In this document: positions 1 through 26,303 of the stretch, in pieces
Position numbering within the stretch: position 1 is the stretch's first letter
Layout: each line of letters starts with the position of its first letter
DNA from: Nitratiruptor sp. SB155-2
GTDB taxonomy: Bacteria; Campylobacterota; Campylobacteria; Campylobacterales; Nitratiruptoraceae
Length of the DNA stretch: 64,000 bases
NCBI RefSeq assembly: GCF_000010325.1
Contig: NC_009662.1
Location: 888,501 to 952,500, forward strand
Direction of reading: 5' to 3'
The notes under the pieces: model-generated
What the model was told of the DNA's origin: nothing
The model's database searches: none
Seen by the model: the letters and a program-made list of their open reading frames with translations, nothing else
Translations under genes and position numbers: made by a program

Positions 1-862
1 GCAAGAAGATATCGGTCTTGATGTTTTGGTGCATGGCGAGTTTGAGAGAAACGATATGGTGGAGTATTTCGGCGAGTTTCTTGAAGGGGTGACATTTAGC
101 CAAAATGGATGGGTGCAAAGCTATGGAAGCAGATGCGTCAAACCTCCTATCATTTTCGGGGATGTCAGCAGACCAAAACCGATGACGGTAGAGTGGATTA
201 CCTATGCACAAAGTCTCACGGACAAACCGATGAAAGGGATGTTAACCGGTCCTGTGACGATGCTCAACTGGAGTTTTGTACGAGATGATCTTAAACGGGA
301 GTCGGTCTATAAGCAGATGGCGTTGGCGATTGCCGATGAAGTGAAAGATTTGCAAGAAGCCGGTATTAAGATTATCCAAGTAGATGAAGCGGCTTTCAAA
401 GAGGGGTATCCTTTGCGAGATGCAAATAGAAGCGAGTATGAAAGAGTCGCTGTTGAGAGTTTTAAAATCGCAACCGCCGTGGCTAAACCCGAAACACAAA
501 TTCACACCCATATGTGTTACAGCGACTTTAACGATATCATGCCGACAATTGATGCGATGGATGCAGATGTGATTTCCATCGAGACGGCACGAAACGGAAA
601 CAGACTCTTGGAGGCTTTTAAAAACTACAACTACCAAAAAGAGGTTGGTGCGGGCGTTTACGATATTCACTCTCCGAGAATTCCGAGTAAAGAAGAACTT
701 ATTAAAGAGATTGAACAAAGAATGCAGGTTTTCCCAGCCAGTAAACTTTGGATCAATCCGGACTGCGGGCTTAAAACCAGAAAATGGGAAGAAGTGATTC
801 CGGCTTTGACAAATATGGTAGAAGCAACGAAAGAGGTGCGAAAACGTATTGTTAAGCTATAA
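1..862 (+). CDS. metE: Cobalamin-independent methionine synthase, C-terminal part (5' end outside window)
   Basis: MetE transfers the methyl group of 5-methyltetrahydropteroyl-triglutamate to homocysteine, the last step of methionine synthesis in the cytoplasm. The reading frame is open from base 2, and the first residues read [20 protein letters not shown], a MetE signature, so the gene starts before the window. About 286 C-terminal residues are present. The family's zinc ligands are all visible: His and Cys in IHTHMCYSD, Glu in SIETARNG and Cys in [11 protein letters not shown]. The gene ends with TAA at 860-862, and the next gene follows after 37 bases. Function is clear; only regulation and the N-terminal half cannot be judged. 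Confidence 0.96.
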
Positions 863-899
863 TTTCAAAGGGGCCTTATGCCTCTTTGAAAGGAGCAAA

Positions 900-1715
900 A
901 TGAAAGTTACAATTAGTGGCGGTGTTCATGGAAATGAGCTTACAGGGGTTTATATTGTTAAAAAACTAATGCATGATGACTTTCAAGTTAAAAATCTTCA
1001 ACTTGATTTTCTCCTAGCCAATCCAAAAGCAATAAAAGAGTGCAGACGCTATGTCGATAAAGATCTTAATAGATCTTTTAGTAAAGATGCATTGCAAAGC
1101 GATGAACCAATATATGAGTATGAACGGGCAAAAGTGATTACTCAAAAATTACAAGATTGTGACTTTTTAATAGATCTGCATACCACAACAGCCAATATGG
1201 GTATTACTATCGTACTTAGCAACCAGGATAGCTTGAGTGAAAATGTGGCTAAAATCTTGGCAAGTGAATATGAGAATGTCCGAATATTGCAATGGCTCAG
1301 TAACGATGAAGGTGCTTTTATCAACTCAATCGTTCCATCTTCCATTACTATAGAAGTTGGTCCTGTGTGTCAAGGAGTGTTGGATGCAAATCTCTATTTC
1401 CAAACTCTTAAAGTTGTAAAAAGGGCCATCGATATTTTGGAAAAAGAAGAGGCATTGCAAGAAAAGGTTCAAGCCTTTCGCATATACGATGCAATCGACT
1501 TCCCAAGAAAGGATAGGGATTTGAATGGAATGATCCATCCAGAGCTTGCAGGTAAAGACTATCAACTCCTACACCCGGGAGATCCTATTTTTCTGACCTT
1601 TGATGAACGAGAAATTTTTTATGAAGGAAAAGAAGCGTACCCCGTTTTTATCAACGAAGCGGCGTATTACGAAAAAGGGATGGCCTTTTGTTTGAGTGAA
1701 TCGATTTTCCTCTGA
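900..1715 (+). CDS. Aspartoacylase-like / succinylglutamate desuccinylase-family zinc hydrolase
   Basis: 271 residues of the AspA/AstE family, which removes acyl groups from N-acyl amino acids such as N-acetylaspartate. Every metal and substrate motif of aspartoacylase is present: H10 and E13 in GGVHGNELTG, DLNR at 55-58, H94 in DLHTTTANMG, and the catalytic Glu E152 in TIEVGPVCQGV. The ATG at 900 follows an AAAGGAGC ribosome-binding site. An in-frame upstream TTG at 849 would overlap metE and has no such site, so I reject it. The family is certain. The exact acyl-amino acid is not, because aspartoacylase and related aminoacylases share these motifs. Confidence 0.85.
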   Translation: MKVTISGGVHGNELTGVYIVKKLMHDDFQVKNLQLDFLLANPKAIKECRRYVDKDLNRSFSKDALQSDEPIYEYERAKVITQKLQDCDFLIDLHTTTANMGITIVLSNQDSLSENVAKILASEYENVRILQWLSNDEGAFINSIVPSSITIEVGPVCQGVLDANLYFQTLKVVKRAIDILEKEEALQEKVQAFRIYDAIDFPRKDRDLNGMIHPELAGKDYQLLHPGDPIFLTFDEREIFYEGKEAYPVFINEAAYYEKGMAFCLSESIFL

Positions 1716-1720
1716 TATGC

Positions 1721-1748
1721 TTGACTCTCGCTGAAAATATGGTATATT
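1721..1748 (+). promoter_or_regulatory. Sigma70-type promoter upstream of htpX
   Basis: TTGACT at 1721-1726 and TATATT at 1743-1748 are 16 bases apart. They lie just after the end of the aspartoacylase gene and about 105 bases before the htpX start. The rest of the 138-base gap is AT-rich leader with no hairpin that I can see. Confidence 0.55.
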
Positions 1749-1853
1749 TAGCTTACCTTATATAAAAATTTGAAGATTCCCGTTAAATGTAGTCTTTTAT
1801 AGCAATAAAGTATTAATTTTTTACAATTGAAAAAAAATAATGAAGGAGTGTAA

Positions 1854-2732
1854 ATGGGTATCATTCTCTTTTTACTGATGAACCTAGCCGTTATGGCTTC
1901 AATATATTTCACTATTTTTCTTCTTGAGCTCTTTTTTGGTATCAGACTCGATCATAATACTATTTCCGGACTTTTGATACTCTCCTTCATCGTAGGATTC
2001 AGTGGCGCACTCATATCCCTTTTCCTCTCCAAATGGATGGCAAAGATGCATATGGGTGTCGAGGTAATCGAAGAGCCAAGAAATGAGGCTGAAGCGTGGC
2101 TTGTCAACACTGTTGCAAAATTGGCTAAAGAAGCTGGAATCGGAATGCCCGAAGTGGGAATTTTTCAAGGACCCCCAAACGCTTTTGCAACTGGTTGGGA
2201 TAGAAACAATGCACTAGTAGCAGTATCCACTTCTCTTCTTGAAATGATGAGCCCTGAAGAAGTGGAAGGGGTATTAGCTCACGAAATCAGCCATATCAAA
2301 CACGGAGATATGATTACCATGACTCTTTTGCAAGGTGTACTCAATACTTTCGTGTTTTTCTTTTCGAGACTCCTTGCAAATATTCTCGCACCAAAAGATG
2401 AAGAAGGTAACCCTTCTCCAATTGCTTATATGGCAATCAGTTTTGCTTTAGAGATCGCTTTGACCATTTTTGCGACAATGCTTGCAATGTGGTTTAGCAG
2501 ATATCGAGAATATAAGGCAGATGAAGGTGCAGTGAGGCTTGATGGACCGAGAGGTATCTATTACGCTTTGGCAAAACTGGGACAGATTCCCAAAGAGCAA
2601 GTTGCTCTTCCAAGCGATATGAAAGCCTTTGGAATTGTTGGATTTTTAGATCTTTTCGCTTCGCATCCGCCAATCGAGAAACGACTTGCTCACATCAAAG
2701 AGGTGGCTCAAAAAATGGGTTATCAACTCTAA
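1854..2732 (+). CDS. htpX: HtpX family membrane zinc metalloprotease (M48B)
   Basis: 292-residue inner-membrane protease that degrades misfolded membrane proteins in other bacteria. Two hydrophobic segments (about 3-30 and 38-60) come first. The zinc motif HEISH is at 143-147. After two more hydrophobic stretches (about 157-175 and 193-213) comes SRYREYKAD, whose Glu (about E219) should be the third zinc ligand. Length and domain order match HtpX. The start ATG follows AAGGAG with good spacing, and the gene has its own promoter. It ends 12 bases before the next gene, so the two are probably cotranscribed. Confidence 0.95.
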   Translation: MGIILFLLMNLAVMASIYFTIFLLELFFGIRLDHNTISGLLILSFIVGFSGALISLFLSKWMAKMHMGVEVIEEPRNEAEAWLVNTVAKLAKEAGIGMPEVGIFQGPPNAFATGWDRNNALVAVSTSLLEMMSPEEVEGVLAHEISHIKHGDMITMTLLQGVLNTFVFFFSRLLANILAPKDEEGNPSPIAYMAISFALEIALTIFATMLAMWFSRYREYKADEGAVRLDGPRGIYYALAKLGQIPKEQVALPSDMKAFGIVGFLDLFASHPPIEKRLAHIKEVAQKMGYQL

Positions 2733-2744
2733 TCAAGGATTGTT

Positions 2745-3143
2745 ATGCATCCTATCAGCTTTATCAAACTCCCCTCGGCGGGAGTTGATCAGACGCTTTA
2801 CATTTCTCTTGTTGTTTTTGTAAGTTTCGTTTTTTTGATTCTTGTTTTGATTCTTATTTACAGATACAAGACAATCCAGGCGCATTATAAACATTTTCAT
2901 TATGTGCTTCAGCAAAGAGGTCTGGATGACAAGACGATCAAAAAGCTTTTTAAATTCATCAATAAACACAACTATACATTGGAATTACTCTTAAGCAATG
3001 AGCAGCTTGTCCACAAGGCTTGCCAAGAGTATGGGCTGGATGAAGAGGAGGTGAAAAAGAAATTAGGGTATGACAGGAAGGCTCTTTTAGAAGAGTATAT
3101 GAAGAGAATGGAATCGTTGAGAAAAAAATGGAATAGAAAGTAG
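2745..3143 (+). CDS. Small single-pass membrane protein of unknown function
   Basis: 132 residues that I cannot assign to a family. A short N-terminal stretch is followed by one strong membrane segment (about 18-42, rich in Val, Phe, Leu and Ile). A mostly helical, charged cytoplasmic part follows and ends in a basic Lys/Arg-rich tail. The start ATG follows AAGGATTGTT, a weak ribosome-binding site, 12 bases after htpX. Proximity to htpX suggests a link to membrane quality control, but that is context only. It ends two bases before the convergent M20 peptidase gene. Confidence 0.7.
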   Translation: MHPISFIKLPSAGVDQTLYISLVVFVSFVFLILVLILIYRYKTIQAHYKHFHYVLQQRGLDDKTIKKLFKFINKHNYTLELLLSNEQLVHKACQEYGLDEEEVKKKLGYDRKALLEEYMKRMESLRKKWNRK

Positions 3144-3145
3144 AT

Positions 3146-4234
3146 TCAGCAAATCTCTTTCATAAATCCTGCAAAGATTTTTGTCGAGAGTTCGACTCTT
3201 TCTATAAAACTCTGTTTGTTTGCCCTTTCATGTATCGTATGATCTCCATCCCCATAAGGTCCAAGTCCGTCAAGGACGATAGACCCCGCACTTGCCGCAA
3301 TGTTTGCATCACTACCTCCCCCTCGATGTTCTTTTTTTATCTTCTTCTGGCTCCATGATTCAATATCTTCTAAAAATTGAAGCTGTTTGTTCGACTCTTC
3401 CCATACATCTCGTTGCAGTCCCCCTCTTAGTGCTGAAGTCGTACCTGGAATATAGGCTGTATTGACAATTTCATGTATCTGCTCGAGGACTCTATCACGC
3501 TCTTTGGAGGAGGTGAAACGAGTCTCAAAGGTAACGAAAGCATAGGGACTTATTGTATTTGCACCTATGCCGCCTTCGATTTTCCCCACATTGACCGTCG
3601 TTCCTTCATTCAAATCACTTAAATGGGAAAGTGCTAAAATCTTGTGAGCGGCTTCTTGATTTGCATCGATTCCTTGTATGTAACAGTTCCCTGCATGAGC
3701 GGCTTTGCCCTTGATTTCTATAGTGAAAGTGCCTATTCCCTTTCGTGCCGTGACAACTTCACCATTATTCCCGGCTGCTTCATACACTAAGCAGTAATCA
3801 TAATTTCGTGCAGTATTATATGTAAGCAACCGAGAGTCATCACTCCCTGTTTCTTCATCGCTCACCAGTAAAATGTCTATATTGAAAATCTCGTTCTGTC
3901 TTCGTAATGCTTCTATCATAACCATGAGTCCACCTTTCATATCACAAACACCTGGCCCATATATCCAATCTTCATCCTCTTGAAAAAGTTCAAAATTCCC
4001 TGGAGGAAATACTGTATCCATATGACCGTGTAAAAGCAACTTTTTGCCGTTTTTATAGGGTGATTGAAAAAAAAGATGGTCTCCAATATCTTCTCTTTTA
4101 TGACGTATGGGAGTATAGCCCAGAGCAGTTAGTTTTTCACACAGCAGGTTTCCTACTTGGTCGACCCCCTTTTTATTTTTTGTATAGGAGTTAATCAGTA
4201 CGAGTTCTTGCAATTCTCTAAAATCGTGCGACAT
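3146..4234 (-). CDS. M20-family zinc peptidase, glutamate carboxypeptidase (CPG2)-like
   Basis: 362 residues of the M20A di-zinc family, which cleaves C-terminal amino acids, often glutamate, or deacylates amino acids. Visible motifs are LLHGHMDTV (first metal His and Asp), GPGVCDMKGG (bridging Asp), SDEETGSDD (catalytic Glu and metal Glu), and GDGDHTIHERA near the end with the last His. An insert of about 110 residues between them is the usual dimerisation domain. The ATG at 4234 has AAAGGA at the right distance; the TTG one codon earlier is less likely. No signal peptide, so cytoplasmic. It is divergent from the ATP-grasp operon, which suggests a partner role in making or trimming a peptide or gamma-linked product. 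Confidence 0.85.
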   Translation of the reverse strand: MSHDFRELQELVLINSYTKNKKGVDQVGNLLCEKLTALGYTPIRHKREDIGDHLFFQSPYKNGKKLLLHGHMDTVFPPGNFELFQEDEDWIYGPGVCDMKGGLMVMIEALRRQNEIFNIDILLVSDEETGSDDSRLLTYNTARNYDYCLVYEAAGNNGEVVTARKGIGTFTIEIKGKAAHAGNCYIQGIDANQEAAHKILALSHLSDLNEGTTVNVGKIEGGIGANTISPYAFVTFETRFTSSKERDRVLEQIHEIVNTAYIPGTTSALRGGLQRDVWEESNKQLQFLEDIESWSQKKIKKEHRGGGSDANIAASAGSIVLDGLGPYGDGDHTIHERANKQSFIERVELSTKIFAGFMKEIC

Positions 4235-4293
4235 CAATCGTCCTTTAATGATATTTAATGTATTATAGGAAAAAAATCTTAAAGGATGGATGG

Positions 4294-5193
4294 ATGGGGA
4301 TCGTTGGAATCTGGATGTATCAAAACGGAGGCGGTGATGTAATCGAAGAAAAAATGAGTAGACGACTTGAAGAGATGGGGCATGAAGTTGAAAAAGGGAT
4401 CAATCTCCGATATGCAGTTGCAGAAAGTGTAAGGATGCTTTTTCAAGATCTCAATCTGTATGACTTGGACTGTTTTTTCAGTTACAATGCTGGCGAACAG
4501 ACGAAATATCAGGTCTATATGTATGAGACATTAGATAGGCATGTTCCTTGCATCAACAACTTTAAAGGTTTCCGTATAAGTGAAGACAAGTTTCAAACCA
4601 ATGATTTGTTACGAAAAAATGGTATACGGACTGCAGAATATTTCCTATGTCACAGAGAAGATATTGACACGATACGACAAAAGGTTCTGGAGTGGGGTAA
4701 AGCGGTATTTAAAACCGTAGACGGCTGGGGAGGCTTAGGAATGGCACTCGTGGATAGTAAAGATAAACTCGATATGATTCTCCCTTTTTTAAATCAGACA
4801 GATTTTCGTTTCTTCTATATAGAAAAGTTCATTGATTATGATGGAAGTGATTATCGTATTGATCTGGTTGATGGAGAGTTTATTGCTTGTTATGGGAGAA
4901 AAGCGAAAAAGGGTGATTGGAGAACGAATGTAACAAGTGGAGGTAGCGTGATATTACGAGATTGTGATGAAGAGGTTATTGAAATAGCAAAAAAAGCTGC
5001 AAAAGCTATTGATATAGAAATAGCAGGTGTAGATCTTGTTTATGATAGAGAACATGAAGAGTATGTGGTGCTGGAAGTTAATGGTATTCCAGCTTTTGCA
5101 ACACCTGAACAAGAAAAAATGGGCCTGGATTTCAATGACAAAAAAATAGAAAAAATAGTTCAACTTATAGATAGAAGGATAAAAAATGGCTAG
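4294..5193 (+). CDS. RimK-like ATP-grasp ligase (first of a pair)
   Basis: 299 residues with an ATP-grasp fold, the class that joins a carboxylate to an amine using ATP (RimK, LysX, MptN and CofF are relatives). The central lysine (AVFKTVDGWGG), the IEKFI hinge, the R-N pair in DWRTNVTSGG, and the closing metal motif EVNGIPAF with E261 and N263 are all intact, so it should be active. The ATG at 4294 has AAGGA seven bases upstream. An in-frame ATG at 4258 adds 12 residues but has no ribosome-binding site. Its stop overlaps the next start by 8 bases (ATGGCTAG). The substrate is unknown; an alpha-L-glutamate-type ligase is the nearest guess. Confidence 0.8.
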   Translation: MGIVGIWMYQNGGGDVIEEKMSRRLEEMGHEVEKGINLRYAVAESVRMLFQDLNLYDLDCFFSYNAGEQTKYQVYMYETLDRHVPCINNFKGFRISEDKFQTNDLLRKNGIRTAEYFLCHREDIDTIRQKVLEWGKAVFKTVDGWGGLGMALVDSKDKLDMILPFLNQTDFRFFYIEKFIDYDGSDYRIDLVDGEFIACYGRKAKKGDWRTNVTSGGSVILRDCDEEVIEIAKKAAKAIDIEIAGVDLVYDREHEEYVVLEVNGIPAFATPEQEKMGLDFNDKKIEKIVQLIDRRIKNG

Positions 5194-6610
5194 AAAACTT
5201 CCCAAAATCGGGCTTTTGTATCTCGATTATGTATTACGTTTTTTTGATAGGAGCAATTTTAGAGGCTGGCCCGATAAAATCGAGACTGTCGTGTATCACT
5301 GGAAAGGTGATGAGGAACGATTTATTAATGAGGTAAAAAAGAAAAAAATAGATGTATTAATAGGAAATATTCCTGCTACGGCATATGAAACGTTTCGTAA
5401 AATTGCAAGAGAGCTTCCAAATGTTCGTTTCGTTCCGAGTCTCGATGCACAATTTGCTAATAAAAGCAAGGAGAATGTAACTCGATTTTGCTGGAAATAC
5501 GATATCCCAGTTCCCAAAACCTACATTTTTTATGATAAAGATGAAGGGATGAGGTTTTTAGAAAAAACCGATTACCCTAAAATCATCAAAAGAAGCTACG
5601 GACCAAGTAATTATGGCGGATACTATGTGCATAAAGTGGATAGTTTCGAAGAAGCGAAAAACCTTCTTGAAACAAAACAATACTGTCCGATATATATACA
5701 GGATTTCGTTCCTATGAGTGCCGATATCAGGGTGATGCTAATCGGTCATAAACCTGTATGTGCTTTTTGGAGGCGGCCACCTGAAGGACACTGGCTTACA
5801 AATACAAGCCAAGGGGGAAGCATCGATTATATGAATGTGCCTCAAGGAGTGTTGGATCTGGCTGTGAAGGTAAGCAAAGCGGCAAATGCAGAGTATTGGG
5901 CGTGTGATATTGCAGTAGGGAAAGAGGATGGTAAATATCGAATCCTTGAATGCGCTACCGCATTCGCTGCATTTCCTTACATCAGAGATTGGATAGGGCA
6001 GTATCTCATGTGGAAACTCAGCAACGGAGCATTCCCAAAGCCAAATATTCCAATTTACAACTGGGAGGAACTTGGTAAAATTGATGGATCACTCCTCAGA
6101 ACAATGCGTTATATAACATTTGGTAGATACACTCCAAGTTTTGATGGAGCATATTTTCTCAATCGCCAGAAGATGGAAGAAGATGGTGGTGTAAAAGCTT
6201 TGTGGGAGCTTGATGAGCGGTATCCGATGCTCAATACCGAAGATAGAGACTATGAAGAGTGGCCAAGTGAACAGTGGGATTTTACAAACAAGTGTAAACA
6301 TTTTTGGAAAAGGAAGAAGAACGAACAGGAGAAAAGAACGAATGAGGAGGGAGAAGAGCATACATTCCATGAACCACCGGAAGCAGAGCCGGTAAGAATT
6401 GAAGAAGAGGAGATTATTCAATTCTTAGAAAAAACATTGGGAAAAAAGAGAGCGAAAAAGATTTTGGATCAGATGGATGCGTTCAATATAGCATATTCAC
6501 TGGATAATAATCCAGATAGTTTATTAGAACTTAAAGGGATTAAGGATAAAACTCTGCAAAAACTTCTCAAAGCATGGGAAGAGATGAAAAAGGAAATGAT
6601 TGAAGCATAA
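5186..6610 (+). CDS. ATP-grasp protein with altered metal motif and C-terminal helix-hairpin-helix-like domain
   Basis: 474 residues. Residues 1-90 look like a pre-ATP-grasp alpha/beta domain. About 91-290 is a RimK-type ATP-grasp core (KIIKRSYGPSNYGG, IQDFVPMSADIRV, NTSQGGSI, CDIAV). Where active relatives have E-x-N, this one has E255-C-A257, so one magnesium ligand is missing. After a module of about 100 residues and an acidic, Glu/Lys-rich linker (about 375-410), the last 60 residues resemble a helix-hairpin-helix unit (LLELKGIKDKTLQKLL). The start overlaps the previous stop and the end overlaps the M14 gene by 11 bases, so the three are translationally coupled. It may be a partner or substrate-binding paralogue of the first ligase. 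No named family recognised. Confidence 0.72.
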   Translation: MARKLPKIGLLYLDYVLRFFDRSNFRGWPDKIETVVYHWKGDEERFINEVKKKKIDVLIGNIPATAYETFRKIARELPNVRFVPSLDAQFANKSKENVTRFCWKYDIPVPKTYIFYDKDEGMRFLEKTDYPKIIKRSYGPSNYGGYYVHKVDSFEEAKNLLETKQYCPIYIQDFVPMSADIRVMLIGHKPVCAFWRRPPEGHWLTNTSQGGSIDYMNVPQGVLDLAVKVSKAANAEYWACDIAVGKEDGKYRILECATAFAAFPYIRDWIGQYLMWKLSNGAFPKPNIPIYNWEELGKIDGSLLRTMRYITFGRYTPSFDGAYFLNRQKMEEDGGVKALWELDERYPMLNTEDRDYEEWPSEQWDFTNKCKHFWKRKKNEQEKRTNEEGEEHTFHEPPEAEPVRIEEEEIIQFLEKTLGKKRAKKILDQMDAFNIAYSLDNNPDSLLELKGIKDKTLQKLLKAWEEMKKEMIEA

Positions 6611-9170
6611 TTATCTTTCATATCAAGATACGATACAATTTTTAGAGGATATGGTGAAGCGATATCCCCACCTCATCCAAGTGCAAACGATTGGAACGAC
6701 ATGGGAGAATCGCCCGATTATCCTAGCCACCATTAGTCAAAATGTCGAATTTGCCCATCTAAAACCAGCCCTTTTGTATACAGGTACTATTCATGCACGA
6801 GAATGGATAGGCAATGAATTGGCGGTTGCCTTTATTCGATATATCTTGACGCATAGTTCATCCAATCCCAAGGTTATGGAAGCATTGGCAAAAAGCACAC
6901 TTTATATCGTTCCAGTCCTCAATCCCGACGGATTTGAATATTCAAGAACACACTACTCCTTTTGGCGCAAAAACAGACGAAAAAATCCTGATGGAAGCTA
7001 TGGTGTGGATCTTAATCGTAACTTTAGCGTAGGATGGGTGAAAAGCAGTAACTACTCCTCCAATATTTATGGCGGACCAGCCCCTTTTAGCGAGCCGGAA
7101 ACGAAAGCCATAAAAGAGTTTGTAAATTCCCATCCCAATATCACGATTGCTTTGGATTACCACTCTCAAGGAAATGTTTTTTTCCCGGCACACAAATTCA
7201 ATCATGAAGCGGAAATAGATGGTACAGATCTCAATGTCCTTTGTGCAAATATGAACTATGAGATTTTTAAAGTGACCGGGAGAAAGTATGGTATCCATAG
7301 AGGAAAGCCTCCTACAAAACTGATCAGTGGAAGTGGTAGGGAATACTACTATTCCAAAGGTATCTTAGCCAGTGTCGTTGAGGTGGGTACGAAAAATATA
7401 CCAGACTATTTACAAAATATGAGCGAATCAATCAATGAAAACATCCCTGCACTTTTATATGCTCTTACAGAAGCCTCCAATTATGCTCCATTGCATCCAC
7501 CGAGGGTAGAGTTTTTTACTATCAAGGAAAGCAGCAGCAATGCTGTGACTCTCCAATGGGAATATGACATAGAAGCAAACACAGGAGTCTATTTTGAAAT
7601 ATACAGAAACGAACAGCACAAAGAGGCGTGTCGTGAACCTTCACTCATAGGGACAACCACACAGTTGGAGTTTACAGATAGCGATAGAGAGAGTGGAAAA
7701 CTCTATTTTTACTATATCCGACCGGTCAATCTATTATCTAAACAAAAAGGTCCATTCGCTCCACAAGTAAAGGTGATGACGACACTTGAAAGAGATGAAT
7801 TTTTTAGAAATCTCTTTCCTGCACCGAAAGATATTGGGTATGTCGCGCAAAAATCCAATAAAAATGCCGATCATTTTGGTAAAAACTCTTTGTTTGTCGG
7901 AGTCAATGAAACGTTGGGTATCAGTTATGGGGTCATCCGATTCAAACTGGACTCTGTATCGCTTCAAGCTTTGATCAAAGAGGCCAAGATTAGTCTATAT
8001 CCATTAAACCGTGTCAATGTAAAAATAGAAAAATATGGAGAGTGGTCCATATCGATTATAGAAAACGTCGATGACATTACCGATTTTGATCAAATTCATA
8101 ACGCAAAGGTGATTCAAACTTTGGGAGAGACGATCCCCTCCCAACAATTGACACAAGGTATCTGGAAAACATGGAGTTTTAATAGTTATGAGAGGGAACT
8201 TTTGCAAGAGGCTATTAAAAAAGGAGAGGTTCTGTTTCGTATTCAAGGACCTACGAAGCTTCCTTTGGGGAGCGATTCTCAAATGATGATGTTCGACATC
8301 GGATATGGCCCTTTTGGAGGAGGGATTCATTATAGACCACATCTTGATTTCAAATACACGTTGCCGCCAGTGAAGCTAGAAATTGACCCAAACAAATTAG
8401 CCACCATTAGTTCTGACGGTGTAACGCTAGATACACTGAGTTGCGGGTTTGACGATAATGGAAAAGTGGTCTATGGATTTATGGAATTCGATCTAGCAAG
8501 TTTGCCAGAAGCCGATACCACAGTGATCACAAATGCTTTCATCAAAATACACAACAAACCGATAAAACCAAGCGGTGAGGATATCCGATATCTTATCGAG
8601 TTGGTGGACTTGGAAGAGCTCGATTATGAAAAAATAGAGAAAAGAGAGTCTTTAGGTTTTATCGATTACGAGGTGAGTGAAACGGAACTTGCCAAGAAAG
8701 ATACCCATCTTTTCTTGTTTGACACATCAAGCAAGATAGAGCTTGAAAATGCACATGCCCAAAATAGAAAAGTTGGATTCATAATCAGACCAACAAAAGC
8801 ATCACAAACAAAGCACCATATTATAGATTGGTATGATAAAAAGAGCCAAAATGAGGTAAAACTTGATATAGAATATATAAAAAGAAGAAAAAAACCTGTT
8901 GGGGGTGTAAAAAATTTGCGTGCTAAAGTCGAGAAGGGTATGGTAAAACTCACTTGGGAAAATCCGACGGATGAGGATTTTGTTGGGGCATATGTAGTGA
9001 GAAATAGATTTCATCCACCAAGAAACCCGCATGACGGTGTAAAACTTTATGCCGGAAAAGACAATTATACATATGACAACTTTGGTAATACAAAAATAGA
9101 AAAATATTATGCCGTTTTTACTTATGACAATGTTCCAAACTACAGCGAACCTGTTATCTTACATTATTAA
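6600..9170 (+). CDS. Multidomain M14 zinc carboxypeptidase with Fn3 and paired beta-sandwich domains
   Basis: 856 residues. Residues 1-290 form an M14 (carboxypeptidase A-type) domain. Zinc ligands are H65, E68 and H188, the carboxylate-binding pair is N139-R140 in VDLNRNFS, and the catalytic Glu is E261 in SVVEVGTKN, so it should cut C-terminal residues. A fibronectin-III-like domain follows (about 301-395), then two similar beta-sandwich regions (about 400-585 and 585-765) and a last Fn3-like domain (about 768-855). The start is TTG at 6600 with AAAAGGA upstream. A TGA lies directly before it in frame, so no N-terminal extension or signal peptide is possible. A cytoplasmic site or an unrecognised export route must be assumed. 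It overlaps the ATP-grasp gene by 11 bases. Confidence 0.85.
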   Translation: MKHNYLSYQDTIQFLEDMVKRYPHLIQVQTIGTTWENRPIILATISQNVEFAHLKPALLYTGTIHAREWIGNELAVAFIRYILTHSSSNPKVMEALAKSTLYIVPVLNPDGFEYSRTHYSFWRKNRRKNPDGSYGVDLNRNFSVGWVKSSNYSSNIYGGPAPFSEPETKAIKEFVNSHPNITIALDYHSQGNVFFPAHKFNHEAEIDGTDLNVLCANMNYEIFKVTGRKYGIHRGKPPTKLISGSGREYYYSKGILASVVEVGTKNIPDYLQNMSESINENIPALLYALTEASNYAPLHPPRVEFFTIKESSSNAVTLQWEYDIEANTGVYFEIYRNEQHKEACREPSLIGTTTQLEFTDSDRESGKLYFYYIRPVNLLSKQKGPFAPQVKVMTTLERDEFFRNLFPAPKDIGYVAQKSNKNADHFGKNSLFVGVNETLGISYGVIRFKLDSVSLQALIKEAKISLYPLNRVNVKIEKYGEWSISIIENVDDITDFDQIHNAKVIQTLGETIPSQQLTQGIWKTWSFNSYERELLQEAIKKGEVLFRIQGPTKLPLGSDSQMMMFDIGYGPFGGGIHYRPHLDFKYTLPPVKLEIDPNKLATISSDGVTLDTLSCGFDDNGKVVYGFMEFDLASLPEADTTVITNAFIKIHNKPIKPSGEDIRYLIELVDLEELDYEKIEKRESLGFIDYEVSETELAKKDTHLFLFDTSSKIELENAHAQNRKVGFIIRPTKASQTKHHIIDWYDKKSQNEVKLDIEYIKRRKKPVGGVKNLRAKVEKGMVKLTWENPTDEDFVGAYVVRNRFHPPRNPHDGVKLYAGKDNYTYDNFGNTKIEKYYAVFTYDNVPNYSEPVILHY

Positions 9171-9186
9171 TCATAAAAGGAGAATC

Positions 9187-10011
9187 ATGAAAAAAACAGT
9201 TTTGGGTTTCATGGCTGCCAGCTCTTTGTTTGCGGGAAGCTTTGAATATGGACAAGGAGATTTCAAAATCAAATATAAACTATACAACCAACAGGCTTCT
9301 GTATCTACAGATATAAAAACCTATTCTTTGGTAGAACAACATAAGAATATTTTCGAGTCCACCTACTACTACAAATATAACATTAGTTGGATGAAACTGG
9401 ATCGTTTTACCACGCCTCAACAAAATATCAGACCCCCGTTCCCGACTATAGATATGCCATCCATTTCCCATGAATTGGAAGGATTAGATGCTTCTATTGG
9501 TATCGGTAAAGATCTCTATCATCACTCAGAACATGATTATATCGGTTTTGGAGTCGATGTTGGCCTCTCTGTCCCATATAGTGATTCTAATCAAAACAGT
9601 AATGGAAGTTTCGATCTCAAAGACTTCAAGATTGATATAACAACGTATAAAATAGGACCTCATATTACTTTTTCCAAATCTTTTCACGAAGTATTGAGCA
9701 TCTATGGCTCAGTAAATTACTGCTATCAGACGTTTCGTTTCAAAAGTGATGTCTTGACTTCATCGGTCGACGTAGATGGATACTCTTATGGTGTGGATTT
9801 GGGTCTTCGTTTCGATCTTTTGCACAAAAATTACGAGACTAAACTGTTGACTATTAAACCTAGATTTTTTGGCGTATTGGGATATCGCTATCAAAAATGG
9901 GACGTCGACGACATAACTGTCAAACTCTTGACATTTTCAGAACCTTTGCAATTTGAAGATATGAATTTTAGAAGCAGTTATTTTTATGGCGGTATTGGAT
10001 ACTCCTTCTGA
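9187..10011 (+). CDS. Outer-membrane beta-barrel protein of unknown function
   Basis: 274 residues with a clear signal peptide (MKKTVLGFMAASSLFAG) and alternating aromatic and polar strands throughout. It ends in YGGIGYSF, and a C-terminal Phe is typical of barrels folded by the Bam machinery. The ATG at 9187 follows AAAGGAG; the longer open frame from 9109 lies inside the M14 gene. It starts 16 bases after the M14 stop and so belongs to the same operon. It could release, take up or anchor whatever the ATP-grasp and M14 enzymes handle, but no family is recognised. Confidence 0.75.
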   Translation: MKKTVLGFMAASSLFAGSFEYGQGDFKIKYKLYNQQASVSTDIKTYSLVEQHKNIFESTYYYKYNISWMKLDRFTTPQQNIRPPFPTIDMPSISHELEGLDASIGIGKDLYHHSEHDYIGFGVDVGLSVPYSDSNQNSNGSFDLKDFKIDITTYKIGPHITFSKSFHEVLSIYGSVNYCYQTFRFKSDVLTSSVDVDGYSYGVDLGLRFDLLHKNYETKLLTIKPRFFGVLGYRYQKWDVDDITVKLLTFSEPLQFEDMNFRSSYFYGGIGYSF

Positions 10012-16247: not shown

Positions 16248-16872
16248 AGCCGCTTCCTCGAATCGTTTTTATATTTGGAAAAATTTTACGCAACGTTTTG
16301 ATGTAGCTTCGAATAGTCGCTTCGCTGGGAACATCATCGAAGTCCCAAATGTTTTGGATGAGATCCTCTTTCGTGACTACTCTATGTGTATAGAGATAGT
16401 GTAGGATTTCACTTGCTTTTGGGGTGAGCTGAATCGTTTCGCCATCTTTGTCGTTGACTAGAAGATGTCTTACAGGATCGAAGAGAAAATCACCGATCTT
16501 TATCTTTTCTTCCAAGCCATAAATACGTTTTACATGTTCGATTCTAGCATCGAGTTCTTCAAATTCGAAAGGCTTTTTGATGTAATCATCACAACCAAGA
16601 TCAAAACCTTTTTTGACATCCGATGAGCTGTCGTTTGAGGTGATGAAAATGACTGGTGTCGTATTACGATCCTTTCGTAAAATTTTGAGCAGCTCATCGC
16701 CTTTGAGTCCAGGGACATTGATGTCAAGGAGTGCTAGGTCTACTCTGTTTTCATACAGATACTCCAAAGCATCCTCACCATTGTCAAAAATGACAGTTTC
16801 ATAATTTTCACTCAGGTGTTCGACCATTAACTCTCTAAGCAGAGTATCATCTTCCAAAAGCAGTATTTTCAT
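16228..16872 (-). CDS. OmpR-family response regulator, probably copper-responsive
   Basis: 214 residues: receiver domain about 1-115 with acidic pocket LLLEDD, phosphorylated D50 in ALLDINVPG and conserved Lys in IKKPFEF. A winged-helix DNA-binding domain follows (about 122-214; [24 protein letters not shown]). Its start overlaps the end of the CopB ATPase fragment by 26 bases and its end overlaps the kinase, so all are one transcript. It is the best candidate for binding the 11-bp-spaced TTMCACA repeats found upstream of both minus-strand copper operons, but that pairing is inferred. Confidence 0.9.
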
Positions 16873-18804
16873 CGAATCGAAACCTTTTTAAAAATTGGGC
16901 ATTGATTGCGACTATGACAGTACTTAAAGACATCATCAAAGCACCAATCTCAGGTGTTATAGCAACACCTACGCCTCTTGCAACACCGGCTGCCAAAGGG
17001 ATTGCAAATATGTTATACCCGCTTGCCCACCATAAATTTTGAACAATTTTGGAATATGTCGTATAAGAGAGTGCGATTGCCTTTGCTATGTCAAATATCG
17101 AGTTCTTTGTCAAAATGATATCCGCACTTTGAGCGGCAATATCGGTCCCAGCACCTATGGCAATCCCGACGTTTGCGCTCAGTAAAGAAGGAGCATCATT
17201 GATCCCATCGCCGACCATGGCAACCCTCTTTCCACTCTTTTTCAATTGTTCTATTATAGCTACTTTTTGATCTGGTAGCAGATGAGCAAAATATCGTTTC
17301 ATCTGGAGTTCATCTGCAACAGTTTTGCCGTTATTTCGTTATCTCCTGTGAGCATGACTGTTTCTATGTGCATTGAATGTAAAAGTGCAATAGCTTTTTT
17401 CGTTTCCGTACGAATTGTATCCATTAAAAGGATATATCCTAGAATCTCTTTTCCCACACCCACCCATACTTTAGTCCCGACCTCATCTCTGTTTTGTTTT
17501 GGAAGCTCAAATCCTTGGTCAATCAAAGCTGTATCGTTTCCTATGACAACTTTTACTCCTTCAATGAGACCCATTGCTCCTTTTCCAGGAATTATTTTAA
17601 ATCTATCTACCGATAAAAGTGGCAGTTTGGCTTTTTTGGCCTCTTCTACAATTGCTTTTGCGATGGAATGCTCAGAGAGTTTTTCCAAAGAGGCGGCAAA
17701 ACCAAGAAGTTTTTTGGGATCATTTGAAACGATATTTTTGACTTTTAATTTTCCCTCCGTTAATGTACCGGTTTTATCGAAACATATCGTGTCTATTTTT
17801 CTTAAATTTTCGAAGGCTTCCCGGTTGCGTATCAAAATACCAAAATGAGCCGCCTTTGTTGTTGATATCGCTGCTACAAGAGGTACTGCAAGACCCAGTG
17901 CATGGGGACAGGCAATGATGAGAACGGTAACACTCATTAACAGTGCTTCATTGGCACCGAGTATCGGCATCCAATATATAAAAGTCGATCCTCCTGCAAA
18001 AAGAGCAATAAAAAAGAGCCATTTTGCTGCTTTGTTTGCAGTATCTTGCAGCTTGGATCGACTCATTTGTGCTTCTTTTACTAGATTGATAACTTGGTAT
18101 AAGTAGCTCTCGCCACCTGGTTTTTGGACAATGATTTTGAGACTGCTATCAAGATTTGTACTGCCCATATAGACACTATCGTTTTTTCGTTTTGAGACAG
18201 GCTTGGATTCTCCGCTTAAAAAGGATTCATTCACGAGTGCCTCGCCTTCTAAAACAGTTCCATCAATAGGAATCTTTTCGCCCGGTTTTACAAGAATGAT
18301 ATCTCCTGGGTTTAGCTGCTCGATACTGATATCTTTCATTTTGTTATCCTGTACCAGATGTGCATTTTTGGGAATCAACTGTACAAGACTTTGCAGTGCC
18401 TGTGAAGCACCTGCAACACTCTTCGATTCCATATAGTGTCCAATGAGCATGATATCGATCAGTGTCGCCAACTCCCAGAAAAACTCTTTTGCGTTTTCAA
18501 GAAAAAGAGCATATGTAGAGTAGATGTACGCTACGCTTATAGCCATAGCTATAAGGGTCATCATTCCAGGATTTTTTTGTTTTATTTCATGGAGTGATCC
18601 CAAAAGAAATGGTTTGCCTCCATAAAAATAGATGATAGAACTTAGGATAAAAATTATCTGTTTTCTAAATGGAATATCCAATCTAAAGCCAAACCAGTCC
18701 CAAATCATTGGTGAGAGCAGAAGTACCGGTATTGTTAGAATTAGCGATACGATAAAACGTTTTTTATAATCTTCGAGGTGATGGGTATGGTTACTATGTT
18801 GCAT
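16847..18804 (-). pseudogene. copB: CopB-type P1B heavy-metal ATPase, split by a one-base deletion
   Basis: A copper/silver exporting P-type ATPase in two frames. The first runs from 18804 (ATG, AAAGGA upstream) to a TGA at 17299. It carries a short His-rich N-terminus (QHSNHTHH), TGES region, membrane motif ACPHALG, DKTGTLTEG and TGDNEIT. The second runs from 17302 to 16847 with [14 protein letters not shown] and the last membrane helices. CPH plus a His-rich tail marks the P1B-3 (CopB) subgroup. Adding one A to the run at 17323-17326 joins them into one 652-residue protein reading [16 protein letters not shown], the normal family sequence. The TGA and the downstream ATG overlap, so coupled translation of two halves is possible. 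Could be decay, sequencing error or, less likely, frameshifting. Confidence 0.85.
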
Positions 18805-18998
18805 CAGTTATCCTTTAAAGTTTTCAGTGCCTCTTCATACTCCTCTTTGCTAATTTCTCCTTTTGCAAAACGCTCATCAAGAATCGATTTTGGATCTTTC
18901 TTGTCAGAGTTTCTCGTGACAAAGTACAGAACAATAGCAAGCAGTATCACAATATAAATCCATCCAAATCCCATGAAATGACCTTGCATCCAATACAT
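18804..18998 (-). CDS. Small membrane protein with SHOCT domain
   Basis: 64 residues: Met-rich N-terminus (MYWMQGHFMGFG), one membrane segment (about 12-28), and a SHOCT motif (LDERFAKGEISKEEYEEAL), which is common in small proteins beside copper transporters. I place the start at the ATG at 18998 because AAAAAAAGGAG lies at ideal distance; the upstream in-frame extension has none. Its TGA overlaps the ATG of the ATPase (TGATG). First gene of the operon with the ATPase and two-component system. The Met residues may bind Cu(I), but this is inference. Confidence 0.82.
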   Translation of the reverse strand: MYWMQGHFMGFGWIYIVILLAIVLYFVTRNSDKKDPKSILDERFAKGEISKEEYEEALKTLKDN

Positions 18999-19017
18999 AT
19001 TGACTCCTTTTTTTCTT

Positions 19018-19051
19018 ATTGTAGGCAAAAGGGTGTGGAAATATTGTGTAA
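19018..19051 (-). promoter_or_regulatory. Promoter with response-regulator direct repeat, SHOCT/CopB operon
   Basis: On the minus strand TTACACA (19051-19045) and TTCCACA (19040-19034) are repeated with an 11-bp step. Exactly 17 bases from the start of the second copy comes the -10 box TACAAT (19023-19018). The layout matches the promoter of the Cus operon at 24664-24697. Direct repeats one helical turn apart beside a -10 box without a -35 are typical of activation by an OmpR-family regulator. Confidence 0.6.
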
Positions 19052-19053
19052 AG

Positions 19054-19071
19054 TAAGGGGAGATCCCCTTA
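19054..19071 (-). terminator. Hairpin at the end of the Cus operon
   Basis: TAAGGGG at 19054-19060 pairs with CCCCTTA at 19065-19071, loop of four; the stop of the RND gene is inside the stem. The minus-strand continuation has only short T stretches, so it is a weak terminator at best. Confidence 0.4.
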
Positions 19072-22000
19072 GCGGATTTTTTTGGAAATTTGGATGTAGA
19101 TCATATACAAAAGAGGAATAATTATTAGACTCAAAACGGCAGAAGTAGCAACTCCACCGATCATTGGTGCCGCAATTCTTTGCATCACTTCACTTCCTGT
19201 TTTGTTGGTGTACATAATGGGAAGCAGACCAGCTAAAATTGCAAAAACGGTCATCAGTTTAGGACGAACTCTTTGAACAGCACCTTCATATATCGCTTCA
19301 ACGAGTAGTTTTTTATCCAGTTTCTCATATTTTTCTACACTCTCTTTAAGATAAATAATCATAACGATTGCCGTTTCAGCCGCAATTCCGAGCAGTGCCA
19401 AAAATCCGACGACCACTGCAACACTCATATTAAAACCCAAATGATCGATATAAAGAAGCCCTCCCAAAAAAGCAAAAGGTAAAGATAAGAAGACAAAGAG
19501 CGTTGGTACAATTTCACCAAGAGCAAAATAGATGAGTATCAAAATAATGAGAAGCACCGATGGAACGATCCACTTGAAAGTATTCATGGCACTCTGTAGA
19601 TATTCACTACTGCCGGCCCATTCATAGAAATATCCTTTTGGAAGGGTTAGACTTTGCAAGGCGTTTTGTGCAACTTTTTTATACTCTGATGCACTCACTC
19701 CTTGCATTGGAGTGATATAGATGTAGGTGACCGGTTTTGCTTTTTCACTTTTGAGAACCGAAGCGCTTTGTTCGTAATGGACATAGGCTATGTCTTTTAG
19801 AGGAATATAGCCATATTTTGTTTTGATACGAAGCTCTTTGATCGCTTCAAGACTGTTTCTTTGCTCCTCTTCCAATCGAATCGAAATGGGATAGCGCTCA
19901 ATGTTTTTTAGTTTCACTGTAACTCTTTTTCCACCTATTGCATAGCTTACAAAATCCAACACATCCGATCGTTTTAATCCATATAAAGCAAGTTTTTTGG
20001 GATCTGTATCGATATCGATATAGTATCCTGTATCACTTCTATCGGCAAAAACCGATTCCGTTTGATTTAGCGCGGCAAGTTTTGTTTCAATTTTTTTGGC
20101 TAATGATTGCAGTGTTTTTATATCATCGCCATAGAGCTTGATGCCAAGGGGTGTTCTGATACCACTTAAAAGCATATCGATTCGGCCCCGAATTGGGTAT
20201 GTCCAAGAGTTGACTAGCCCTGGAACTTGCACCGCCTCATCCAAATCTTGCAACAACTTTTTCATATCTATTTTTTCATTCTTTAGTGTTATGATTGTTT
20301 CTATCATGGAAAGTGGAGCCGGATCGGTTGCAGTATCGGCACGTCCCGCTTTTCCAAAGACACTCTTGACTTCATCAAAACTAGCTATCACTTTGTCTGT
20401 CATTTGTGTCAGCATCTTTGCTTGATCGATGCTTATGCCATAGGGAGTGACTGGCATATACATCAAAACACCCTCATTGAGTGGTGGCATAAACTCCCAT
20501 TTGAGCTTTTTGTAAAGCTGATAGGAAAAAAGAAGCAAGGCAATGGCAAGGGGGATAAAAATGTAGCGAAGTTTCAATCCAATGACGATAAATGGATGAT
20601 AAAGCCAGATAAAGAACCTATTAATTGGATTTTTCTTTTCATCTGGAACATCTTTAATAAACCAGATCATGAGAGCCGGTACTATCGTAATAGCCAAGAT
20701 GGCTCCCACACTCATCGCAAAGGTTTTTGTAAAGGCAAGTGGCGTAAAAAGCTTTCCCTCTTGCCCTTGCATAGCAAAGATTGGCAAGAAGGAGACGACG
20801 ACAAGGGCTAGGGCGAAAAAGATTGGACGACCGACCTGTTGACATGATTCAATGATGAGCGAAACTCTCTTGCTTGGCGTCAATGCTTTTTTATTTTTGA
20901 TACTGTCCAGTTTTTTGTGGGCATTCTCTATCATGACAATACTCGCATCTACCATAGCCCCAATGGCGATAGCGATACCCCCAAGGCTCATGATATTGGA
21001 GCCTATACCAAAAATTTTCATAAGTAAAAATGTCAGACCGATAGTCAGTGGTAGAACGATCAATACGATCAACGTGCTTCTAAAGTGGAAAAGAAAAAAA
21101 CCTATCACGACAAGAACTATGATGCTCTCTTCAATGAGTGTATCTTTGAGTGTACTTACAGCATCTTCTATGAGTCTACTTCGATCGTATGTAGGAATAA
21201 TTTTGATATCTTTGGTTTGGAGTTTTTGTAGTTTGTCTTTTACTTTTTTGATTGTTGCATAGACATCTGCACCATATTTTGCAATAACAATCCCTCCAAC
21301 AACTTCTCCTTGACCATTGAGATCTGCTAGACCACGTCTTGGCAGGGCAGTCCATTCGACTCTTGCTATATCTTTGATTTTCAGCGGAATCTTTCTTTTC
21401 GTTTTAACGGGCAGCTCTTCAATTTCTTGAAGGGATTTGATGTAGCCACGTGCTTGAATCATCCATTCATACCCATTTTGTATCGTTATACCACCGCCAA
21501 CATCGTTGTTGTTGAGTTCTAGCGTTTTCACTATATCTTTGACTGAAAGACCATGTTCTATGAGTTTGTGATTATCGATTGTCACTTGATAATTTGGAAT
21601 AAATCCGCCAACGCTTGCAACTTCACTTACACCATCAATACCCAAAAGTGCATATTTAAGAGTGTAGTCTTGGTATGTACGAAGCTGGGCCAAATCTTTT
21701 GTACTGCTGATTAGTGCATATTCATACACCCATCCAACACCGCTTGCATCTGGTCCAAGGCTTACCTCTGCATTTTTTGGAAGAGTTGGTGCAACTTTGC
21801 TCAGTTCCTCTAACACCCTCGTTCTTGCATCATAAAGATCGGTTCCATCTTTAAAGATGATATAAATGAGTGCATTTTCGTACGTTGAGAAGCCCCGGAC
21901 CGTATCGATATCAGATATTGCCAAAAAAGAGCTTGTAAGGGGGTAGGTGACTTGATCCTCTATGATTTTTGGACTTTGTCCAGGAAATTTGATTTGAATA

Positions 22001-22143
22001 ATAACCTGTGGTGGGGTGAGATCTGGTATCGCATCAAGAGGCGTTTTCTTTATAGCCCAATAGGATGCTCCTGCAAAAACTAGGGCAAACAGAAAAATCA
22101 AGAATCTATTTTTTGCGCTCAATTCTATAATTTTTTCAATCAT
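19069..22143 (-). CDS. cusA: CusA-type RND transporter for monovalent copper/silver
   Basis: 1024-residue inner-membrane proton-driven pump of the heavy-metal RND family, twelve hydrophobic segments in the usual 1+5+1+5 order. The N-terminus closely follows E. coli CusA (LDAIPDLTPPQVII, GPDASGVGWVYEYAL). The three methionines that bind Cu(I)/Ag(I) in CusA appear to be kept in MYMPVTPYGI, APLSMIETI and RIDMLLSGIRTPLG. I start it at 22143 (MIEKIIELS): this overlaps the adaptor stop by 8 bases (ATGATTGA), whereas the frame open from 22209 adds an implausible Cys-rich leader. Last gene of ytkA/fixH-like, tolC-like, adaptor, pump operon. Confidence 0.93.
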   Translation of the reverse strand: MIEKIIELSAKNRFLIFLFALVFAGASYWAIKKTPLDAIPDLTPPQVIIQIKFPGQSPKIIEDQVTYPLTSSFLAISDIDTVRGFSTYENALIYIIFKDGTDLYDARTRVLEELSKVAPTLPKNAEVSLGPDASGVGWVYEYALISSTKDLAQLRTYQDYTLKYALLGIDGVSEVASVGGFIPNYQVTIDNHKLIEHGLSVKDIVKTLELNNNDVGGGITIQNGYEWMIQARGYIKSLQEIEELPVKTKRKIPLKIKDIARVEWTALPRRGLADLNGQGEVVGGIVIAKYGADVYATIKKVKDKLQKLQTKDIKIIPTYDRSRLIEDAVSTLKDTLIEESIIVLVVIGFFLFHFRSTLIVLIVLPLTIGLTFLLMKIFGIGSNIMSLGGIAIAIGAMVDASIVMIENAHKKLDSIKNKKALTPSKRVSLIIESCQQVGRPIFFALALVVVSFLPIFAMQGQEGKLFTPLAFTKTFAMSVGAILAITIVPALMIWFIKDVPDEKKNPINRFFIWLYHPFIVIGLKLRYIFIPLAIALLLFSYQLYKKLKWEFMPPLNEGVLMYMPVTPYGISIDQAKMLTQMTDKVIASFDEVKSVFGKAGRADTATDPAPLSMIETIITLKNEKIDMKKLLQDLDEAVQVPGLVNSWTYPIRGRIDMLLSGIRTPLGIKLYGDDIKTLQSLAKKIETKLAALNQTESVFADRSDTGYYIDIDTDPKKLALYGLKRSDVLDFVSYAIGGKRVTVKLKNIERYPISIRLEEEQRNSLEAIKELRIKTKYGYIPLKDIAYVHYEQSASVLKSEKAKPVTYIYITPMQGVSASEYKKVAQNALQSLTLPKGYFYEWAGSSEYLQSAMNTFKWIVPSVLLIILILIYFALGEIVPTLFVFLSLPFAFLGGLLYIDHLGFNMSVAVVVGFLALLGIAAETAIVMIIYLKESVEKYEKLDKKLLVEAIYEGAVQRVRPKLMTVFAILAGLLPIMYTNKTGSEVMQRIAAPMIGGVATSAVLSLIIIPLLYMIYIQISKKIR

Positions 22144-23104
22144 TGTAGAGTCCATTGATTTGGGCATCGCTATCGAGCAAGAACATTGCGCTATCGGCAA
22201 TCGTTTCACCTTCTTTAAGCCCAGAGATGAGTTGATAGTATCTGTTATCTAAAGGTTTAATTTGAACTGCAACCGGTTCATATTCCCCCTCATATTCTCC
22301 AACCTTAAAGGCGTACCATTTCCCATTTTTGCGAATAACGGCCGTTTTCGGTACAACGAGAATCGATTTTTTATGCTCTCTTATAGTAACTTTGGCATAT
22401 TCTCCTGCAAGAACATCTTTGGACTTTACAAAAAGACGTACTATTGCAAGGGCACTGTCTGCATCTATGATGGGCAGAAGTTTATGGCTAGTTATTTTGA
22501 CCTTTTCATTTCGCACATATGCAGATATAAAATCACACTTTTTATAAAAGTCGATATCTTTGCCAGGAATTTGTGCTTCTACCCAAAAATGTTCGTTTGA
22601 TGCGATGCGAAAAATAGTTTTTCCTTTTTGAAAGAAACTTCCCGGGTAAACATCTTTTTTGAGCAAAAATCCATCAATAGGCGCTACTATTTTTGTAATA
22701 GTTAAAGTTTTTGTAGGATTTTTGAGTTCATCTTTTGGAAGCCCCAAAAGTTTTAGTTTTAGATAAGAAGCTGTTGTCATTCTCTTGTCAAGACCAAATT
22801 TTAACGAGTTTTTGTACTCCTCTTTTGCGTTATAGACTTCAGGGCTATAGATAAGGGCTAAAATATCACCTCTTTTGATATGTTGCATTGGCTCTTTCGC
22901 ATACAGTTTTTCTACATATCCAGAAAATCTTGGGGCAATGTCAACGATTTCACTTTTATCAAGTTTCACTATGGCGGGGTATGTTTTTTGCACAAAAAGA
23001 TCTTTTTTTGCAACTTTTGTCGTTTTTACGTTGAAAAGCTGCTCTATGCTAAGTCTATCTGCACACAACAAAAAAGGCACAAGAAATGTAAGTAATATTC
23101 TCAT
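22136..23104 (-). CDS. cusB: CusB-like periplasmic adaptor of the copper/silver RND pump
   Basis: 322 residues. A signal peptide (MRILLTFLVPFLLCA) is followed by the membrane-fusion-protein order: barrel-sandwich halves about 55-85 and 130-160 (SGYVEKLYAKEP, APIDGFLLKKDVYPGSFFQKG), a short alpha hairpin between, then beta-barrel and membrane-proximal domains. It links the pump to the outer-membrane channel in the periplasm. It overlaps the channel gene by 4 bases (ATGA) and the pump gene by 8. Function follows from the CusA-type partner. Confidence 0.9.
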   Translation of the reverse strand: MRILLTFLVPFLLCADRLSIEQLFNVKTTKVAKKDLFVQKTYPAIVKLDKSEIVDIAPRFSGYVEKLYAKEPMQHIKRGDILALIYSPEVYNAKEEYKNSLKFGLDKRMTTASYLKLKLLGLPKDELKNPTKTLTITKIVAPIDGFLLKKDVYPGSFFQKGKTIFRIASNEHFWVEAQIPGKDIDFYKKCDFISAYVRNEKVKITSHKLLPIIDADSALAIVRLFVKSKDVLAGEYAKVTIREHKKSILVVPKTAVIRKNGKWYAFKVGEYEGEYEPVAVQIKPLDNRYYQLISGLKEGETIADSAMFLLDSDAQINGLYND

Positions 23105-24273: not shown

Positions 24274-24632
24274 CAGATATTTACCGAAGTTTTGATGCGA
24301 TATTTTTTACCACTGTTTGTCGTGATAAAAATATGTACCTGCCAGGTTCCTGCCATAGGTAACTTTACATTGGCTTGGTAACCTTGATCATTTTTTTCAA
24401 TTTTAGCCCAGCTTTCCATATATGGCATACCGGGCATCGCTGGCATAAAAAATTTGACTTTGAGGTCTTTTATATTTTTTTTGTTGATATGAAACAAAAA
24501 GGAATTTGCTCCTACACTCAAAGGTTTGGTAGAGATTATGTCGATCTTGAAACCTCTGTATTTGACATGTTTTTGAAAGCCGGATGCAAAAAGAAGTATT
24601 GCACCGAGTGCTAATATTGCAAGTTTTTTCAT
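24273..24632 (-). CDS. Exported FixH/YtkA-like copper-operon protein
   Basis: 119 residues: signal peptide (MKKLAILALGAILLFASG), then one beta-sandwich resembling YtkA/FixH-like domains. The Met-rich loop FFMPAMPGMPYME is a likely Cu(I) site. First gene of the Cus operon behind the direct-repeat promoter. It is probably a periplasmic metal-binding helper that occupies the place CusF has in E. coli, though it is not homologous to CusF as far as I can see. Confidence 0.72.
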   Translation of the reverse strand: MKKLAILALGAILLFASGFQKHVKYRGFKIDIISTKPLSVGANSFLFHINKKNIKDLKVKFFMPAMPGMPYMESWAKIEKNDQGYQANVKLPMAGTWQVHIFITTNSGKKYRIKTSVNI

Positions 24633-24663
24633 GGTCCATCCTTTATGATATTTTTCATGAAGT

Positions 24664-24697: not shown

Positions 24698-24704
24698 AAT
24701 GCAG

Positions 24705-24739: not shown

Positions 24740-24752
24740 TGTTCTTTAACCA

Positions 24753-26227: not shown

Positions 26228-26256
26228 AACTTCCTCCTTGACTTGCATAACAGAAA

Positions 26257-26268: not shown

Positions 26269-26303
26269 AAAGTGTGATATAAATAAGCTTTAAAGAAGGT
26301 TAA

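Follow-up and report, generated by a model that had tools for sequence, protein, structure and literature searches.

A conserved cluster of two ATP-grasp ligases and two metallopeptidases in Nitratiruptor and other marine bacteria: a candidate system for adding and removing acidic residues

The locus discussed here lies in a 64,000-nucleotide stretch of the 1,877,931 bp genome of Nitratiruptor sp. SB155-2 (contig NC_009662.1, positions 888,501 to 952,500), which is called the window and to which all coordinates refer. A sequence-only reading had placed five genes here, and all five open reading frames are present. An M20 metallopeptidase of the CPG2-like type is encoded on the minus strand (3146..4231) and was assigned from the Pfam models M20 and M20_dimer, a match to 1cg2 and a homologue alignment. 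Divergent from it are three genes on the plus strand: AG1, a RimK-like ATP-grasp ligase (4294..5193, Pfam RimK E 7e-23), AG2, a second ATP-grasp protein (5186..6610), and an 856-residue M14 carboxypeptidase of the A/B type (6600..9170, Peptidase_M14 E 2e-57). They are followed by a putative outer-membrane barrel (9187-10011), for which the OMP_b-brl match (E 0.011) lies below the cut-off. AG1 and AG2 overlap by 8 bp (5186-5193), AG2 and M14 overlap by 11 bp (6600-6610), and a gap of 16 bp (9171-9186) separates M14 from the barrel, as had been claimed. The earlier family calls, an M20 peptidase, two RimK-type ATP-grasp proteins and an M14 peptidase, also agree with clear Pfam matches for these four genes.

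The gene ends and overlaps stand as first described, but homologue alignments shift the start codons of AG1 and M20 slightly. AG1 starts at ATG 4294 instead of 4258. The M20 protein most likely starts at ATG 4231, with a TTG at 4237 as the alternative. With the corrected starts about 62 bp separate the two divergent genes, and this intergenic stretch (4232..4293) is likely to contain the promoter region.

A genome scan with AG2 gave 185 loci with relatives, of which 80 were kept, and 22 further loci were added. The order M20-AG1-AG2-M14 recurs in most of the approximately 100 loci compared, with the M20 gene either divergent or co-directional upstream. When the open reading frames of at least 50 aa were clustered, the AG, M14 and M20 clusters were found in ~80 to 101 loci and the next cluster in 21; no other widely conserved neighbour family was seen among all such frames in the ~100 loci. 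Of 249 genomes in the window's class, 22 encode AG1, 23 encode AG2 and 22 encode M14; the three occur together in 21 (Fisher p 1e-30 to 3e-27, values that ignore shared descent). The association of the four genes greatly exceeds chance. Pairwise distances are also correlated between the four proteins (Pearson 0.62-0.91, 57 loci), as expected for joint descent, a pattern to which species history could also contribute. The four genes are inherited as one unit. A search for co-occurrence of all five genes had been proposed earlier, together with the view that a neighbourhood conserved in no relative would speak against a common function; the four-gene core recurs widely, and the barrel is the exception.

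The core is distributed across Campylobacterota, Vibrionaceae and three further genomes of Pseudomonadota. Vent bacteria and other marine species are numerous among the carriers, and the spread is patchy. Two genomes of the same genus, G029 and G031, lack the cluster, and this patchy presence speaks for its repeated gain or loss as a unit. In Photobacterium sp. DA100 it is found on pDA100. Veronia pacifica carries the cluster twice, once intact and once decayed. In the decayed copy AG2 and M14 are each divided into two overlapping frames and the M20 gene is intact.

Partial clusters are found in a few genomes. In two (G009 and G128) M20, AG1 and M14 lie together and AG2 is located ~840 kb away, in another (G104) only M20 and AG1 are present, in another (G217) only AG2 and M14, and in one (G036) only a remnant of AG2 with stops is found. 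The exceptions G104 and G217, single genomes in each case, hint that the ligases and hydrolases may work in pairs, AG1 with M20 and AG2 with M14.

A search of Gammaproteobacteria with a single AG2 sequence matched 1 of 321 genomes, the source genome itself; when a profile was used on Pseudomonadota, three additional genomes with the cluster came up (L162, L163 and L164). All four genes are on one strand in L162 and L163. In L164 positions 559-4290 form a single open reading frame of 1243 aa, in which M14 (1-855) is fused to M20 (875-1228), and AG1 and AG2 follow directly. A natural fusion of M14 and M20 beside both ligases is good evidence that the two hydrolases serve one pathway; the fusion is known from one contig of L164, so there is a small chance of an assembly error.

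The sequence-only reading had also included a surface protein in the system, and this part of the proposal finds no support. Among the ~100 loci a homologue of the barrel is seen near the cluster only once more, in L028, where it sits between ORF132 and M20 on the opposite side of the cluster. The barrel, not conserved and differently positioned in L028, was rejected as a member of the unit. Nor does the M14 protein point to the surface, as no signal-like N-terminus was seen by inspection in any of 30 aligned homologues. An aspartoacylase-like gene (849-1715) that scores above the cut-off of the PRK02259 equivalog also lies in the window. It was considered as a partner in a route resembling that of N-acetylaspartylglutamate and was rejected, because its distribution does not track the cluster: aspartoacylase is present in G029, G031 and G056, which do not have the cluster, and is missing from most genomes that do. 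In G013, G031 and G164 a TAA lies inside the matching aspartoacylase stretch.

The structure model of the M14 protein consists of a peptidase domain (aa 1-298), an FN3 domain, two jelly-roll domains resembling DNRLRE and another FN3 domain; these names come in part from an NCBIfam DNRLRE match below the cut-off and from Pfam fn3 in a homologue. The catalytic domain is that of the CPO, CPA and CPB enzymes. The zinc site (H65, E68 and H188) and the residues N139, R140 and E261, read by equivalence to CPA as Asn144-Arg145 and the catalytic Glu270, are present in 87/87 homologues. The predicted model matches CPA4 with a target-normalised TM of 0.83, and CPO is among its best structural matches. 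In an alignment to CPA4 and CPB, R247 (codon 7338..7340, plus strand) falls at CPA residue 255 in the S1' pocket, and this specificity position is Arg in all 87 sequences, as it is in CPO. It has been shown for CPO that Arg255 leads to specificity for acidic C-terminal residues (PMC9925722). The position of CPA Tyr248 varies among the homologues and the model is poor near the active site, so the specificity of M14 rests on the sequence alignment. M14 probably clips acidic C-terminal residues. It differs from CPO, CPA and CPB in having no prodomain or signal, in its additional C-terminal FN3 and jelly-roll domains and in its operon with ligases. FN3 and DNRLRE-like domains are commoner on exported proteins, and here they are carried by a protein in which no signal sequence is seen.

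The nearest solved relative of the M20 peptidase is CPG2 (1cg2, E 2e-42, residues 5-341). The similarity extends over the whole length and the metal site is intact, with metal-site and catalytic motifs invariant in the homologue alignment; unlike CPG2, the M20 protein is encoded in an operon with ligases. Its score against the CPG2-like subfamily PRK06133 is 196.2 and does not reach the cut-off of 349. The M20 enzyme probably also clips acidic residues, to judge from these relationships. The Glu-type residues named in the sequence-only reading have therefore gained in plausibility, both from the invariant S1' Arg of M14 and from the fact that M20 is closest to CPG2 among solved structures. Digestive and salvage enzymes occur in both hydrolase families, and M14 and M20 could simply break down peptides while the ATP-grasp pair takes part in an unrelated process that shares the locus. 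This is very unlikely in view of the linkage kept across phyla, the co-occurrence that persists even where AG2 is unlinked, the fusion of M14 and M20 beside both ligases, the gene overlaps and the lack of a signal sequence.

The ligases do not belong to a known pathway by the profile models that were compared. The best PDB match of AG1 is E. coli RimK (E 1.3e-17), and its ATP-grasp metal ligands D247, E261 and N263 are invariant in 28 homologues. AG1 and AG2 score 63.6 and 16.6 bits against the RimK cut-off of 331 (PRK10446), 123 and 78.6 against 143.4 for the RimK subfamily TIGR00768, and 97.9 and 76.2 against 275.6 for the LysX model TIGR02144. The best-scoring model for AG1 is the cofactor ligase MptN, at 128.7 with a cut-off of 350. 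Both ligases fall below the cut-offs of the RimK, LysX, MptN, CofF and GAK models. A match to an enzyme of a known pathway had been named as a reason to abandon the earlier proposal, and every cut-off was missed.

AG2 is the more unusual of the two. Its nearest relatives by sequence and predicted fold are LysX, ArgX and RimK, and RimK/LysX/ArgX relatives ligate amino acids to the C-terminal Glu of a protein. About 160 positions, including the core residues Lys135, Asp241 and Glu255, are invariant across 34 homologues. The E-x-N metal motif is represented by an invariant E255-C-A257 that lacks the usual Asn ligand, a position that is gapped in the profile alignment, and AG2 could be inactive for want of this ligand. 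It may then act as a non-catalytic pseudo-ligase or a regulator that steers AG1 or M14. The E-C-A motif and the AG2-M14 pair that stands alone in G217 favour such a role, but the extreme conservation across the ATP-grasp core would be unusual for a pseudoenzyme, and we regard the idea as doubtful; it is compatible with the add-and-remove system proposed below. The ligase core extends over approximately aa 1-332. A variable C-terminal helix-hairpin-helix domain (~aa 405-474, 6398..6607, plus strand) is indicated by a Pfam HHH_5 match below the cut-off (E 3.5e-4) and by confident helices in the structure model. This domain is absent from AG2 in L162 and L163, and AG2 of L164 ends before it, so the domain is accessory. 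The model has moderate confidence (mean pLDDT 69.9), and region 289-402 thus yields no usable fold information.

Known systems that combine such ligases with peptidases resemble the cluster in part. RimK attaches Glu residues to the C-terminus of a protein and synthesises poly-alpha-glutamate (PMC12239564). As in RimK/RimA/RimB, a RimK-type ATP-grasp ligase adjoins a peptidase, but the cluster has two ligases and the M14 and M20 metalloenzymes where RimABK has the retropepsin-like RimB. No retropepsin-like protease of the RimB type was seen among the conserved neighbours or the cluster peptidases. Ribosomal protein S6 is unsupported as a target: its C-terminal tails, compared with that of L142 left out, show no systematic difference between genomes with and without the cluster.

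The LysX/ArgX-LysW-LysK pathway shares with the cluster the ligase fold and sequence nearest to AG2 and an M20 enzyme, LysK. AG1 and AG2 might accordingly load a small LysW-like carrier protein from which M20 would release the product as LysK does, and the M20 protein has a weak match to the [LysW]-lysine hydrolase PRK04443 (48.1 bits, cut-off 363). However, a search with the LysW model TIGR01206, positive in Thermus and other control genomes, had no match in the window's own genome, and on this ground the LysW pathway itself was rejected. Neighbours of the LysY, LysZ or LysJ type and other Lys/Arg pathway genes are lacking nearby, no small open reading frame of at least 50 aa is conserved in the ~100 loci, and M14 has no counterpart in that pathway. 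A carrier of this kind is the most improbable of the explanations considered here.

Taken together, the products of the four genes may attach acidic residues, Glu or Asp, in the cytosol and take them off again, a reading to which we give a probability of about one half. In an ATP-driven step AG1 would join Glu (or Asp) to an acceptor at a free carboxylate, probably at a protein C-terminus or on a peptide-like molecule. AG2 would act either as a partner of AG1 or as a second ligase, which might, for instance, carry out elongation or serve another acceptor. M14 would take C-terminal acidic residues off the ligase product, and M20 would hydrolyse a terminal Glu from the product or from released short peptides. 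We infer the amino acid, the acceptor, the division of labour and the opposition of the two activities. The make-and-trim system put forward in the sequence-only reading is strengthened in this respect by joint inheritance and by the M14-M20 fusion, while its surface protein finds no support; its polyamino acid tag is one candidate product and a small metabolite another. The fusion together with the invariant Arg leads to a specific prediction, that the erasers act on acidic C-termini.

Reversible modification with amino acids through ATP-grasp enzymes has been studied well on tubulin; bacterial work on it deals mainly with ribosomal protein S6. In tubulin polyglutamylation the ATP-grasp TTLL glutamate ligases are opposed by cytosolic M14 carboxypeptidases that accept acidic C-termini. 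A more specific and rather unlikely form of the proposal is reversible polyglutamylation in bacteria, in which the two ligases would start and extend a chain on a protein, M14 would erase the chain and M20 would remove the last residue. If true, this cycle would parallel the eukaryotic one but would have been assembled independently. The resemblance is one of analogy and not of homology, as M14 is of the A/B type here, the ligases are RimK-like and M20 is extra.

In the main rival explanation, the product of AG1 and AG2 is a small acidic molecule, a peptide or an amide such as an osmolyte, a metal ligand or a cofactor tail, comparable to N-acetylaspartylglutamate or to glutamylated cofactors, and M14 and M20 recycle it. 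The best model for AG1 is a cofactor ligase, though far under its cut-off, enzymes of the CPG2-like M20 family act on small glutamyl conjugates, and all of the proteins look cytosolic. One ligase is also mildly induced by metals: the ATP-grasp domain protein NIS_RS04835 of this strain has log2 changes of 1.03 under Cd and 1.29 under Cu (PMC10092412). Counting genes back from the SO_0444 transporter NIS_RS04910 (24753-25835) would assign this tag to AG2; it would fall on AG1 if a single tag covers the split P-type ATPase of the window. The change is small. A small product is nevertheless hard to reconcile with the 856-aa multidomain M14, no conserved transporter or biosynthetic partner was found in the ~100 loci, and the nearby aspartoacylase does not follow the cluster. 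This explanation is a tentative one, to be taken seriously beside the add-and-remove system for acidic residues.

For either product the set of genes is very likely an undescribed system. The sequence-only reading recognised no described pathway with this set, and a literature search likewise found no description of it; the broad survey of ATP-grasp amidoligases by Iyer et al. 2009, which was outside the scope of the search, may mention it. In branches 7 and 8 of a graspetide survey, ATP-grasp genes are likewise associated with peptidases and no precursor is apparent, and the text does not mention M14, M20 or carboxypeptidase (PMC8939145). AG1 and AG2 differ from the ligases of those loci in resembling RimK and LysX. 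Their scores against the MvdD/MvdC graspetide models are far under the cut-off, and no graspetide precursor was found among the conserved open reading frames of at least 50 aa in the ~100 loci; graspetide biosynthesis was set aside on the lack of a precursor and the RimK/LysX matches. Anti-phage defence was also set aside, as the PADLOC defence models gave only a marginal and uninformative Csm5 match of M20 (E 6e-4). If the add-and-remove reading is correct, the cluster is a compact four-gene unit with writers and erasers, and would offer a genetically small system for testing which other targets bacteria glutamylate and for what reason.

Further along the window lies a heavy-metal efflux island (17299-32427) with a P-type ATPase, RND/adaptor/TolC sets, the SO_0444 transporter and a cytochrome c, which fits the Cd/Cu-induced cluster reported for this strain (PMC10092412). 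The heavy-metal P-type ATPase (16847-18804) appears to be divided into two overlapping open reading frames of 501 and 151 aa, with the HAD part in the second, possibly as a result of a frameshift.
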